NCBI RefSeq assembly: GCF_002205645.1
Contig: NZ_NIOF01000018.1
Span: 1 to 64,000 of the forward strand
Length of the DNA: 64,000 nucleotides
Direction: 5' to 3'
DNA from: Roseateles aquatilis
GTDB taxonomy: Bacteria > Pseudomonadota > Gammaproteobacteria > Burkholderiales > Burkholderiaceae_C
Positions 41,658 to 45,147 of the stretch are shown piece after piece. Each line of letters begins with the position of its first letter. The first letter of the stretch is position 1. A program made the position numbers and the translations under genes. Below the pieces are notes generated by a model, which searched no databases, was not told where the DNA came from, and was given only the letters and a program-made list of their open reading frames with translations.

Positions 41658-41690
41658 ACAGGCCCACGCCCACCGGCGGGGCCTGTTTTG
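41658..41690 (+). terminator. Intrinsic terminator after the small basic gene
   Basis: ACAGGCCC (41658-41665) pairs with GGGCCTGT (41679-41686) and runs into a TTTT tract (TGTTTTGCTTT). Confidence 0.75.
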
Positions 41691-41762
41691 CTTTGGAGGC
41701 GCGCCCGGCCGACGGGCGCCGCTCTCCACCTCCCTCAGCCTCCCGCTGCTCGATCAATCGCC

Positions 41763-43445
41763 ATGATCCGCATCAACGAACTCCGCCTGCCCCTGGACCA
41801 TCCCGAGGAGGCGCTGCGCGCCGCCGTCGTCGGCCGACTCGGCATCGACGATGCGCAGCTGCAATCCTTCACCGTCTTCAAGCGCAGCTATGACGCGCGC
41901 AAGAAGAGCGCGATGGTGCTGATCTACAGCGTCGACTGCGACATCGGCGACGCCGCCGCCGAGGCCTCGTTGCTTGCACGCCTGAGCGGCGACACCCACG
42001 TCAAGCCGTCGCCCGACACGGCCTACCGCTTCGTCGGCCACGCGCCGGTCGATTTCTTCGCGGGCGAGCGCCCCCGGCCCGTCGTCATCGGCTTCGGCCC
42101 CTGCGGCATCTTCGCGGCGCTGATCCTGGCCCAGATGGGCCTGCGGCCCATCGTGCTGGAGCGCGGCAAGGAAGTGCGCGAGCGCACCAAGGACACCTGG
42201 GGTCTGTGGCGCGAGAGCCGGCTCGATCCGGAGTCGAACGTGCAGTTCGGCGAGGGCGGGGCGGGAACCTTCTCCGACGGCAAGCTGTACAGCCAGATCT
42301 CCGATCCGCGCTTCCTGACGCGCAAGGTGCTGACCGAGTTCGTCAAGGCCGGCGCGCCGGAGGAGATCCTCTACGTCAGCAAGCCGCACATTGGGACCTT
42401 CCGCCTGGTGAGCATGGTGATCAAAATCCGCGCCGAGATCGAACGGCTGGGTGGCGAGATCCGCTTCCAACAGAAGGTCACCGACCTGCTCATCGAGCCG
42501 GGGCCGGACGGCCAGCGCCACGTGCGCGGCGTGACGCTCGAATCCGGCGAGGCGCTGCGCGCGGACCACGTCGTGATCGCGCTGGGCCACAGCGCGCGGG
42601 ATACCTTCACGATGCTGCACGAGCGCGGCGTGCACATGGAGGCCAAGCCGTTCTCGATCGGCTACCGGATCGAGCATCCGCAGTCGATCATCGACAAGGC
42701 GCGCTTCGGCCCCAACGCCGGTCATCCGATCCTGGGCGCGGCGGACTACAAGCTGGTCCACCACGCCAGGAACGGGCGCTCGGTCTACAGCTTCTGCATG
42801 TGCCCGGGCGGCACGGTGGTGGCGGCGACGTCGGAGCCCCATCGCGTCGTCACCAACGGCATGAGCCAGTACTCGCGCGAGGAGCGCAACGCCAATGCCG
42901 GCATCGTTGTCGGCATCACGCCCGAGGACTATCGCCAGGACGGCAAGACCGACGGCAGCGCGGTCAATCCGCTCGACGGCATGGCGTTTCAGCGCATCTG
43001 GGAGTCGCGGGCGTACGAGCTCGGAGAAGGCGACTACCGCGCCCCGGGCGCGCTGGTCGGCGACTTCATCAAGCGCCAGCGCAGCACCGCGCTGGGCGGG
43101 GTCGAGCCGAGCTACAAGCCCGGTGTCACGATGACCGACCTTCAGCAGAAGGGACTGGGCAGCCTGCCGGGTTACGCGCTGGACGCGATCCGCGAGGCGC
43201 TGCCAGCCTTCGAGCGGCAGATCCGCGGCTTCTCGATGGCCGACGCCGTGCTGACCGGCGTGGAGACGCGGACCTCGTCGCCCCTGCGGGTCACGCGTGG
43301 CAAGGACTATCAGAGCCTCAATGTCCGCGGGCTGTTCCCGGCGGGTGAGGGCGCTGGCTACGCAGGCGGGATCATGTCCGCCGGGGTGGACGGCATCGAG
43401 GTGGCGGAGGCGCTGGCGAAAGCGTTGCTCGGGGTCAAGGACTGA
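41763..43445 (+). CDS. FAD-dependent dehydrogenase (uncharacterised NAD(P)/FAD family)
   Basis: 560 residues. After a ~100-residue N-terminal alpha/beta domain (MIRINELRLPLDHPEEAL) comes the dinucleotide-binding motif VIGFGPCGIFAALILAQMG (Gly110, Gly112, Gly115) and LERGKEVRERT for the FAD ribose. FGEGGAGTFSDGKLY, SIGYRIEHPQ and SFCMCPGGTVVAATSE are typical of the large family of uncharacterised bacterial FAD dehydrogenases (YhiN/HI0933-like neighbours). The C-terminus closes the FAD site (GLFPAGEGAGYAGGIMSAGVDG). Cytoplasmic; substrate unknown. The ATG at 41763 matches the family start. Confidence 0.85.
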   Translation: MIRINELRLPLDHPEEALRAAVVGRLGIDDAQLQSFTVFKRSYDARKKSAMVLIYSVDCDIGDAAAEASLLARLSGDTHVKPSPDTAYRFVGHAPVDFFAGERPRPVVIGFGPCGIFAALILAQMGLRPIVLERGKEVRERTKDTWGLWRESRLDPESNVQFGEGGAGTFSDGKLYSQISDPRFLTRKVLTEFVKAGAPEEILYVSKPHIGTFRLVSMVIKIRAEIERLGGEIRFQQKVTDLLIEPGPDGQRHVRGVTLESGEALRADHVVIALGHSARDTFTMLHERGVHMEAKPFSIGYRIEHPQSIIDKARFGPNAGHPILGAADYKLVHHARNGRSVYSFCMCPGGTVVAATSEPHRVVTNGMSQYSREERNANAGIVVGITPEDYRQDGKTDGSAVNPLDGMAFQRIWESRAYELGEGDYRAPGALVGDFIKRQRSTALGGVEPSYKPGVTMTDLQQKGLGSLPGYALDAIREALPAFERQIRGFSMADAVLTGVETRTSSPLRVTRGKDYQSLNVRGLFPAGEGAGYAGGIMSAGVDGIEVAEALAKALLGVKD

Positions 43446-43480
43446 CCCTTTGCTCGGTTGTCGCCTGGTATGGGCTTCGC

Positions 43481-43780
43481 TACTTCGGCGGCTGAGCAAC
43501 GGCCGAAGGAAGCCCGGGGCCCCGGGTCGTCAGACAAAATTCCTCCCCGGGGCCCCGGGCTCCCTTCGGCCGCGAATCACCGAGACTTTTCGGGGCGTGG
43601 CGATCCGTGGGGGCGGGTGTTGGGCGTCGCAGGGGCTGGGTACTTCGGTCGTCCAGCGACGGCCGAAGGAAGCCCGGGGCCCCGGGTCGTCAGACAAAAT
43701 TCCTCCCCGAGGCCCCGGGCTCCCTTCGGCCGCGAATCACCGAGACTTTTTGGAGCGTGGTGATTCGTGGGTGGTTGGCG
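43481..43780. repeat. Two tandem 160-bp repeats, each with 26-bp inverted arms
   Basis: The stretch from 43481 is repeated from 43641, period 160 bp. Each copy contains a long palindromic element: left arm 43501-43526 pairs with right arm 43546-43571 (25 of 26 bp, 19-base loop); in the second copy 43661-43686 pairs with 43706-43731. The loop is identical in both copies (TCGTCAGACAAAATTCCTC). It fills the 341-bp gap between two convergent genes, so it may act as a bidirectional transcription or RNA-decay barrier, like REP/BIME elements. The unit itself is not one I recognise. Confidence 0.8.
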
Positions 43781-43786
43781 ATCGCT

Positions 43787-44929
43787 TTATAGCGCCTGCC
43801 AGAGGATGCCCGCGGAGCCTGCCCCCGTCGGGGTCCAGCCTGCGCCCACCCACGCGGTGTGGTTCTGCAGGCAGCGGTACTGCCTGCCCTGGTAGGTCAC
43901 CACCTGGCCGGTCGTGTAGGTCGTGCCTTCGGCCCAGGCCGGCGCGCCGGGCGTGGTCGGCGGCGTGCTCGGCAGGATGACGTCCAAGGCGTAGCTCGCG
44001 CCGGAGTTGGCGTTCTGCAGATAGACGTCCATCACGGTGACCCCGCTTGGGACCACGACGTTGCCCCCCTGCAGCGCGCCCACCTTCACATAGGCCGAGG
44101 TCTGGTTGACCTTGGTCGCGATCTGGCCGAGCCACCCGGCCTTGGGCGCCGCGGCGCTCAGCGTCACGACGATGGACTCCAGGTCGGCGCCCGCGCCGTT
44201 GAAAACCCGCAGCTTCACCTGGCTGCCGGTGGGCAGATCCTGCGCCGCCGAGACCTGCCCGATCTGCTTGAGCCCCGTGGGCGTGCCGGGCGGCGTCGTG
44301 CCGCCACCGCCGAAGTCGACGTCGGAGCAGGCGTAGAACGCCTCCGTGCTGTCCGCCCGCTGCCAAGCCGAGAACAGCACGTGCTTGCCGGTCCGCTTGG
44401 GCAGGCTCAGCTTCATCGTGTAGGTCTTGTTGGTGGTGACGATCTGGTCCGGGCCCAGTTGCTGCACCTGCTCCAGGTCCGACCAGCGCAGCGGCGACGT
44501 GGTCGGATTCCAGCCATCCCGCGTCAGGAAGAAGGTCCAGTTCAGCGAGCGGTGCGGCGCGGTGGCGTTGTAGCGGTACTCGTACTTGCCGTCCGCGCCC
44601 GGGGAGTAGGCCGTCACCGGCCAATCCGCCCGCGCCAGGTCGAAGCCCTTGAACTTCTCCTGGCCACCGGCGCAGATCTTGAGGTCGGGCACCACCGCCG
44701 GATGGTTGCCGTTGGCGGCAGCCTGGTTGACGCCGTTCCAGTCGTAGATCGCCTGCTCGCCGCCATAGGCGATCGCGGCCTGGCAGGCCGGCAGCGACGG
44801 GTTCTTGAAGCAGTTGTACTGGCGCGAGATCGGGAACTCGGGCGCGCCATGGGCGTGGGCGGCCGGGGCGAAGGCCGCGGAAAGCGCCGTCAGCGCCAGG
44901 GCGCCGGTCAGTCGGGCACGGTCATGCAT
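43787..44929 (-). CDS. Chitin-active lytic polysaccharide monooxygenase (AA10) with C-terminal chitin-binding domain
   Basis: 380 residues. The signal peptide ends AHA-H, leaving His27 as the N-terminal copper-binding histidine of the mature enzyme; the second copper ligand is His126 in NATAPHRSLNW. The catalytic domain extends to about residue 210 (AFYACSDVDFGG). A linker and a middle beta-rich domain follow, then a CBM5/12-type chitin-binding module (WAEGTTYTTGQVVTYQGRQYRCLQNHTAW). It is secreted and oxidatively cleaves crystalline chitin. The ATG at 44929 has AAGGAG seven bases upstream. It is divergent from a LysR-type regulator gene. Confidence 0.93.
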   Translation of the reverse strand: MHDRARLTGALALTALSAAFAPAAHAHGAPEFPISRQYNCFKNPSLPACQAAIAYGGEQAIYDWNGVNQAAANGNHPAVVPDLKICAGGQEKFKGFDLARADWPVTAYSPGADGKYEYRYNATAPHRSLNWTFFLTRDGWNPTTSPLRWSDLEQVQQLGPDQIVTTNKTYTMKLSLPKRTGKHVLFSAWQRADSTEAFYACSDVDFGGGGTTPPGTPTGLKQIGQVSAAQDLPTGSQVKLRVFNGAGADLESIVVTLSAAAPKAGWLGQIATKVNQTSAYVKVGALQGGNVVVPSGVTVMDVYLQNANSGASYALDVILPSTPPTTPGAPAWAEGTTYTTGQVVTYQGRQYRCLQNHTAWVGAGWTPTGAGSAGILWQAL

Positions 44930-44986
44930 CGATGTCTCCTTTTGATATGGAAGGGAATGGACGCCCGATGTGTGGCCCGACACAAC

Positions 44987-45028
44987 ACCAAAGCATGACC
45001 ACCATAAGACCTGAAGAAGACCAAAGCA
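44987..45028. promoter_or_regulatory. Repeated ACCAAAGCA motif upstream of the LPMO gene
   Basis: ACCAAAGCA occurs at 44987-44995 and 45020-45028, 33 bp apart (about three helical turns), with a related ACCAAAA at 45044. These lie in the divergent LPMO/LysR region and could be activator sites. No classical T-N11-A LysR box was clear to me. Confidence 0.35.
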
Positions 45029-45147
45029 AGATGCCGTGCAGTAACCAAAAATCTCCAGCATTCGTGAGGAGCGAAGGGAGTATCATGAACGCCGGTAGTC
45101 TTGCTCTCTGAGCGAAGGCTAGAGTTCAACCCAGCCGCCGCCACGCC

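Follow-up and report, generated by a model that had tools for sequence, protein, structure and literature searches.

A tandem palindrome between convergent genes of Roseateles aquatilis belongs to a dispersed family with a shared hairpin tip, varied arms and strand-asymmetric stem mismatches

What is the pair of long palindromes that separates two convergent genes in a 64,000-nucleotide stretch of the Roseateles aquatilis genome (hereafter the window, meaning the whole analysed stretch), and does it belong to a known class of repeats? A sequence-only reading had described it as a tandem 160-bp element with 26-bp arms and an identical loop. The convergent setting was borne out: a gene for an FAD-dependent protein (PF21688, PF01266) occupies 41688-43445 on the plus strand and a gene for a LPMO_10 + GbpA_2 + CBM_5_12 protein occupies 43787-45061 on the minus strand, both with predicted start codons. 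Between them, two direct copies of 140 nt in register (43472-43611 and 43632-43771) follow each other with the expected period of 160 bp and are 89% identical. The near-identical pair of palindromic arms is present as well, but the arms are 27 nt long and not 26 bp. They lie at 43500-43526 and 43546-43572 in copy 1 (96% complementarity) and at 43660-43686 and 43706-43732 in copy 2 (93%), and the 19-nt loop is indeed the same in both copies. On the minus strand, the hairpins (43500-43572 and 43660-43732) carry the tip core GAGGAATTTTGTCTGACGA at 43527-43545, with the identical sequence at 43687-43705. The motif CTCGGTGATTCG flanks the stem on its 5' side in both copies (43573-43584 and 43733-43744, minus strand). 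On the 3' side of copy 1 lies GCTCAGC (43491-43497, minus strand), which the sequence and the per-column conservation of the family described below show to be a degenerate version of GCTCGGT.

Both strands of the palindromes fold into very stable hairpins. The RNA fold of a 342-nt region with both copies gave z-scores of -7.2 (plus strand) and -8.5 (minus strand) against 100 shuffles each, the DNA fold of copy 1 (95 nt) gave -7.3 (minus) and -6.7 (plus) against 200 shuffles each, and no shuffled sequence reached the stability of the window hairpins in either type of fold on either strand. In the plus strand fold, extra hairpins flank the main palindromes at 43446-43499 and 43573-43771, and given these predicted hairpins each 160-bp unit may comprise several stems.

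Such stability on both strands and the position between convergent genes could be explained by a bidirectional intrinsic terminator that serves both genes. However, the bases that follow the stems are CGCGAATC on the plus strand and TTGCTCAG or TCGCTGGA on the minus strand. None of the 8-base stretches that follow the two stems on the two strands contains a T run, so nothing points to a bidirectional terminator of the classical kind. A terminator scan also returned no site, but it was limited to loops of 3-8 and was therefore blind to a hairpin with a 19-nt loop. As termination needs neither a fixed tip nor the strand asymmetry described below, we consider this explanation very unlikely.

A BLASTN search of the 6.39 Mb genome returned the query region itself, its two reverse self-matches and four further places (contigs C42, C45, C14 and C12; 53-97 nt, 76-82% identity). 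Read side by side, these places have the same or nearly the same tip and different arms. The pattern GAGGAATN{0,30}TGACGA occurs at 10 sites in this genome (reversed control pattern, 0), nine of which fold as hairpins, whereas the C44 site does not. Across 16 genomes of the genus, the pattern is present in 14, and the control matched 4 times in total. When pattern matches from the other genomes were folded (loci L042-L068 without L043 and L061), only L055, L060 and L067 were hairpins, so many single pattern matches are due to chance.

We extracted 36 candidates with paired flanks (at least 12 pairs) from 26 loci, dropped two false ones (L100 1209 and L116 1211), put aside four palindromes of a second type and aligned the remaining 30. 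The covariance model built from this alignment (R1), run at E-values up to 0.1 on the 16 genus genomes, gave 51 matches in genome G014, 50 in G015, 14 in the R. aquatilis genome, 11 in G004, 9 each in G009 and G013, 4 each in G007 and G005, 3 each in G010 and G008 and one each in G003 and G002; at this threshold, there were none in G001, G006, G011 and G012. The matches listed represent 49 distinct places in G014 and 47 in G015, where two matches are opposite strands of the same element. Nine low-scoring loci were read singly. The family core was found in L253, L254 and L259, a core resembling a third type in L193, and a core resembling the second type in L255, L262, L263, L264 and L266; on this reading, the G008 and G002 matches that were read are second-type-like. 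A second covariance model (R2) matched copy 1 at 43484-43578 (minus strand) with an E-value of 5e-10, obtained with a training set that includes copy 1, and copy 2 at 43644-43738 (minus strand) with an E-value of 1e-8. The combined R1 and R2 match lists give 14 distinct places in the R. aquatilis genome. The element is thus not unique, as the suggested genome search for the arm sequence could have found it to be, and the proposed amplified palindromic family does have dispersed and amplified members. However, what is amplified is not the arm sequence: the tip is shared and the arms differ.

The variation of the arms is extensive. R1 found 180 matches, some on both strands, in 100 fetched loci; the best 150 of these were aligned, and the 146 non-overlapping ones were taken further. 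They fall into 82 clusters at 85% identity, and 26 of 38 arm columns carry less than 0.6 bit. The arms nevertheless stay paired. RNAalifold predicted 21 pairs for the 30 aligned sequences, 18 of them with double changes. In the 29 distinct sequences of this set, which is biased toward pairing by the selection of candidates through their paired flanks, 96.1% of arm cells are paired, compared with 67.8% after shuffling and 35-45% after sliding. The covariation shows that arms which differ widely between elements remain complementary within each. Some arm subfamilies are common within and between G014 and G015, and similar arms occur on four G014 contigs (L105, L106, L107 and L109). We also considered whether each arm is itself palindromic, as in a double REP, and rejected this reading: over 34 elements, the arms fold on themselves at the level of chance (mean z of -0.2), the exceptions being two L107 arms (-3.3 and -2.6).

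What the elements share is the tip. Its inner tandem step, GAAT (or GATT) opposite TGA, is nearly invariant, an outer GA step is common without being obligatory, and between the two lie one or two covarying base pairs (G-C; GC/GC; GT/AC; AG/CT). The core takes the forms GAG-GAAT/TGA-CGA, GAGCGAAT/TGAGCGA, GAGTGAAT/TGAACG, GAAGGAAT/TGACTGA and GGGCGAAT/TGAGCCA, the last with Watson-Crick pairs in place of the outer step, and GACGAAT/TGAGGA occurs in other genera. The core is thus shown to covary. In most members it is topped by a mini-hairpin, the arms of which, judged by eye, vary together (GCG/CGC, GTG/CAC, GCC/GGC). Tandem G.A steps of this kind can form sheared G.A pairs, and GCGNAGC tips are very stable DNA mini-hairpins. 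In the window, GAGGAA and TGACGA can form the succession G.A, A.G, G-C, G.A, A.G, A-T; this pairing, like that of the tip core in general, we infer from the sequence. A simple expression for the core misses 26 of the 146 matches, and 24 of these retain the inner step and have changed outer letters; L204 1549 has TAA instead of TGA, and L263 is second-type-like. Over the 82 clusters, conservation is 1.00 for the inner left G, A and T, 0.99-1.00 for TGA, 0.75 and 0.81 for the outer left GA, 0.68-1.00 for GCTCGGT beside the stem and mostly low for the arms, values that lean upward because the set was found through the core itself. GCTCGGT often follows immediately after the stem across the family, and CTCGGTG-rTTCG or a similar sequence precedes it in several elements, comparable to the 5' flank of the window hairpins.

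The family extends beyond the genus. In 299 genomes of the bacterial family, R2 matched in 9. Reading of G112, G294, G145, G241 and G128 showed this core on other arms, and G003 and G181 have the third tip type described below; G217 was read as well. The tip pattern GAGGAATCGGANNNTGNGACTGACG, allowing at most 3 mismatches, matched 65 times in 25 of 399 genomes of the bacterial family (reversed control, 12). From these matches 30 loci were fetched, of which 16 are hairpins (at least 17 of 24 Watson-Crick pairs) and 14 are not. The hairpins belong to genera g98, g131, g114, g76, g63 and g105, which with g1 and g12 makes a total of eight genera, seven besides that of R. aquatilis. A class-wide sample of 369 genomes returned the R. 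aquatilis genome alone, a weak absence, as stricter filters were used and 11 candidates were scored per genome. A long pattern run against a genome collection gave 39 stretches. By comparison with the G014 loci, four are genuine, all from one Burkholderiaceae MAG (L124, L125, L139 and L152 with 2, 3, 2 and 1 matches, respectively); the remaining 35 were taken as chance, as about 37 were expected by our own estimate.

The mismatches within the stems suggest that the structure is maintained on one particular strand. If selection acted on a duplex or a cruciform, decay to G.T or to A.C would be expected equally often. On the strand that carries the tip motif GAGGAAT, however, we counted 134 G.T and 7 A.C mismatches in 124 distinct stems of 19 pairs each, a set partly collected with a model that counts G.U as a pair. 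Clustering at 80% left 62 G.T and 2 A.C, with 40 of 67 clusters in favour and 1 against. A model-free set of 26 distinct stems chosen by pattern gave 24 and 2, the 16 hairpins from other genera, which were selected first on the tip pattern and next on the number of Watson-Crick pairs and were pooled without clustering of relatives, gave 27 and 2, and a less strict count 66 and 9. Selection thus seems to act on a folded single strand whose polarity is fixed. A binding site in double-stranded or cruciform DNA would suit long, near-perfect, extragenic palindromes, but it gives no reason for the preference of G.T over A.C on one strand, and we regard it as hardly credible. The existence of the family and its strand asymmetry are both well supported.

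Is this strand an RNA? The elements could be hairpins in 3' untranslated regions or small RNAs, in which the tandem G.A tip would bind a protein or nuclease and protect or process 3' ends. A one-strand tolerance of the G.U type is typical of RNA, and the arrays lie mostly behind genes. By raw counts, 44 of 88 arrays are between tandem genes and 26 between convergent genes, compared with 4 between divergent genes, while a further 8 lie at the edge of a locus and another 6 overlap an ORF call; the genes were called by a codon-usage caller that we made to replace a first, crude one, neither of which was validated. Furthermore, orthologous sites have retained the core. On the other hand, the strand does not track the gene: 20 single-orientation arrays have the same direction as the gene and 22 the opposite one. 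The G.T excess is equally strong where transcription from the gene would produce the other strand, with G.T:A.C ratios of 25:3 for the same direction, 24:2 for the opposite and 85:2 for all other cases. The two amplified genomes gave 22:3 and 21:1 for same and opposite, respectively, and the remaining relatives 2:0 and 3:1. Stems chosen by pattern only are few: four in the same direction have 0 G.T and 1 A.C, and seven in the opposite direction have 6 and 0. The excess is thus independent of the direction of the neighbouring gene, which argues against a purely cis-acting role in the 3' untranslated region and for single-stranded DNA or a trans-acting RNA. The asymmetry does not decide between these two. 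There is no sigma-70-like site at the window pair, and Rfam gave nothing at or above the gathering threshold for the window stretch and 32 loci. Taken together, we consider an RNA element possible, though less likely than not. Below the Rfam threshold, most matches were to eukaryotic microRNA models, which also matched 43498-43732 of the window with low E-values and scores far under gathering; these matches seem to be artefacts of long GC-rich hairpins.

The arrangement and distribution of the elements bear on how they arose. Arrays have periods of about 150 to 420 bp and are direct, as in the window and in L101, L105, L219, L221 and L228, or alternating, as in L099, L107, L215 and L218. Many elements occupy orthologous places in several genomes, so any movement must be slow or old. 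In the aligned orthologous groups, conservation is mostly higher in the element than in the intergenic DNA around it, and orthologous elements have matched double changes in their arms next to diverged flanks (e.g. L236/L261, L234/L250 and L240/L258). The window's own site contains an element with other arms in G004 and G007. By eye, G003, G014 and G015 have the same neighbouring genes with no core motif between them, and their flanks are too diverged to reveal a target site. The conservation of the core at orthologous sites is as compatible with a local function as with mobility. In G015, the coordinates, inspected by eye, showed no clear replication-strand bias. A shared gene near the elements was sought by an all-against-all BLASTP of 234 called proteins and rejected, the largest group having 11 members; judged by eye from a few sequences, this group resembles ABC transporters.

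We then compared the elements with REPs, using the REP (RepRanger and Di Nocera) and CGTC-REP definitions in the accessible parts of PMC3733652, PMC12306157 and PMC8266576. Like REP and BIME elements associated with TnpA-REP (RAYT) in Enterobacteriaceae, Pseudomonas and Stenotrophomonas, they are extragenic (with the six overlapping and eight edge arrays set apart), form palindromic stem-loops, as seen from folds, arm complementarity and covariation in the family, and have an irregular stem with a conserved motif next to it and a strand-specific logic. Tandem arrays and pairs of alternating orientation are likewise present, the latter providing in relatives the regularly alternating units of a BIME, so that the likeness suggested in the sequence-only reading gained support. 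They differ in other respects. REPs are short (14-40 nt with stems of 5-13 bp), whereas the window hairpin is 73 nt long with 27-nt arms, and the family is similar. A common palindrome consensus is missing, given the 82 clusters, the irregularity is the tandem G.A core of the tip, the flank consensus is GCTCGGT, and the family consensus has neither GTAG nor CGTC at the stem ends. The copies number tens at most, and REPs are said usually to exceed 100 in the portion of PMC2817692 available to us.

Could the family nonetheless consist of ordinary REP/BIME members, extragenic, palindromic and dispersed, that were spread by a RAYT gene of the host? Y1_Tnp genes are present in all 16 genus genomes, one or two in each, including the four genomes with no model match. 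The search for a RAYT transposase in the R. aquatilis genome accordingly found two RAYT-like Y1 genes (C10:45231, L024, and C48:219864, L025), but none of the 14 Y1 loci examined (of 30 Y1_Tnp matches) has a copy nearby, as R2 gave no match at E-values up to 1 within flanks of up to about 1.5-2.5 kb. Both genes score below the NCBIfam RAYT cut-off and are possibly domesticated transposases; by eye, the L024 gene adjoins apparent aroB and dgt genes. A link to RAYT was rejected, since across the 16 genomes the presence of Y1 genes is unrelated to the number of elements. With stems about three times the 8-9 bp given for CGTC REPs in the available text of PMC3733652, no terminal tag and no arm sequence common to the members, this explanation appears improbable.

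We read the window pair as two tandem copies of a single member of a REP-like extragenic palindrome family that is defined by shape, and put the chance that this is right at about even. The shape combines arms some 25-30 bp long that vary widely in sequence, a tandem G.A step on the inner and usually one on the outer side of one or two Watson-Crick pairs, a mini-hairpin atop in most members and a GCTCGGT-like flank beside the stem. The GAGGAAT...TGACGA strand would act as a folded single strand, bound by a putative factor that reads the G.A core and the flank. With less confidence, we propose that copies may spread and multiply in arrays via single-stranded DNA, in the manner of REPs and their Y1/HUH enzymes, and that copies which settle behind genes may be kept, perhaps for a role at 3' ends. 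A recogniser was not found, the 14 Y1 loci examined having no element in them. In its general form, for which we hold somewhat less than even confidence, the proposal is a Burkholderiaceae repeat class whose identity would lie not in a sequence but in a three-dimensional key that tandem G.A modules and a mini-hairpin form on one strand. The arms would drift widely, each change matched in the partner arm, and a strand-specific factor would read the key in single-stranded DNA or RNA, both spreading the copies and keeping them behind genes. As repeat searches usually seek shared sequence and the arms share none, such a family would mostly escape them. Related genomes contain one tip structure in dozens of natural, compensated variants, which makes the recogniser testable, and the asymmetry of G.T and A.C provides a test for single-strand function that needs the sequence only and could be applied to other families of extragenic palindromes.

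Several known systems are similar in part. IS200/IS605 ends are recognised through one strand of an irregular hairpin. The same holds for other folded single-stranded substrates, and TnpA-REP works on one strand of folded single-stranded DNA, according to the accessible part of PMC8266576; unlike IS200/IS605, the elements have no visible transposase gene and show no defined ends or cleavage sites. The CGTC-tagged REPs, which in the part of PMC3733652 open to us have stems of 8-9 bp, loops of 4-5 nt, the tag at the open end and no known dedicated transposase, are likewise palindromic and mostly extragenic and share CGTC-like letters (TCGTCA). In our family, however, TCGTCA belongs to the interior of the hairpin, at its tip, and changes in step with its partner. 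The Burkholderiales-1 motif, which the available portion of PMC2864571 lists as an ambiguous RNA of Burkholderiales with no Rfam accession, could be an earlier sighting of the family. No published description of the family was found in searches of the open-licence PMC literature.

Two further types of palindrome were observed. The second type has free outer arms and an inner hairpin that varies freely, with a large internal loop AAGTATTAGGAGGAATTC...GAAGGGGGACATGGAG that is conserved. It is present in the R. aquatilis genome at C10:70499 (L113), C23:490963 (L114), C43:335100 (L115) and C47:143473 (L112), once in G015 and as single relatives in two other genera (together L102, L076 and L078), with looser variants in G002, G008, G009 and G010 (L263, L264, L266, L255 and L262). 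It had no Rfam match where scanned and may be a separate structured RNA. The third type has the tip TGACGATTTTGGGACTTATGAGGA or a close variant with a similar GA arrangement and occurs in the R. aquatilis genome (G000), G003, G009 and G181, the last from another genus (loci L189, L190, L191, L281, L284, L272, L252 and L274). In its form TGACGATTT...ATGAGGA, a C-G pair lies between the steps.
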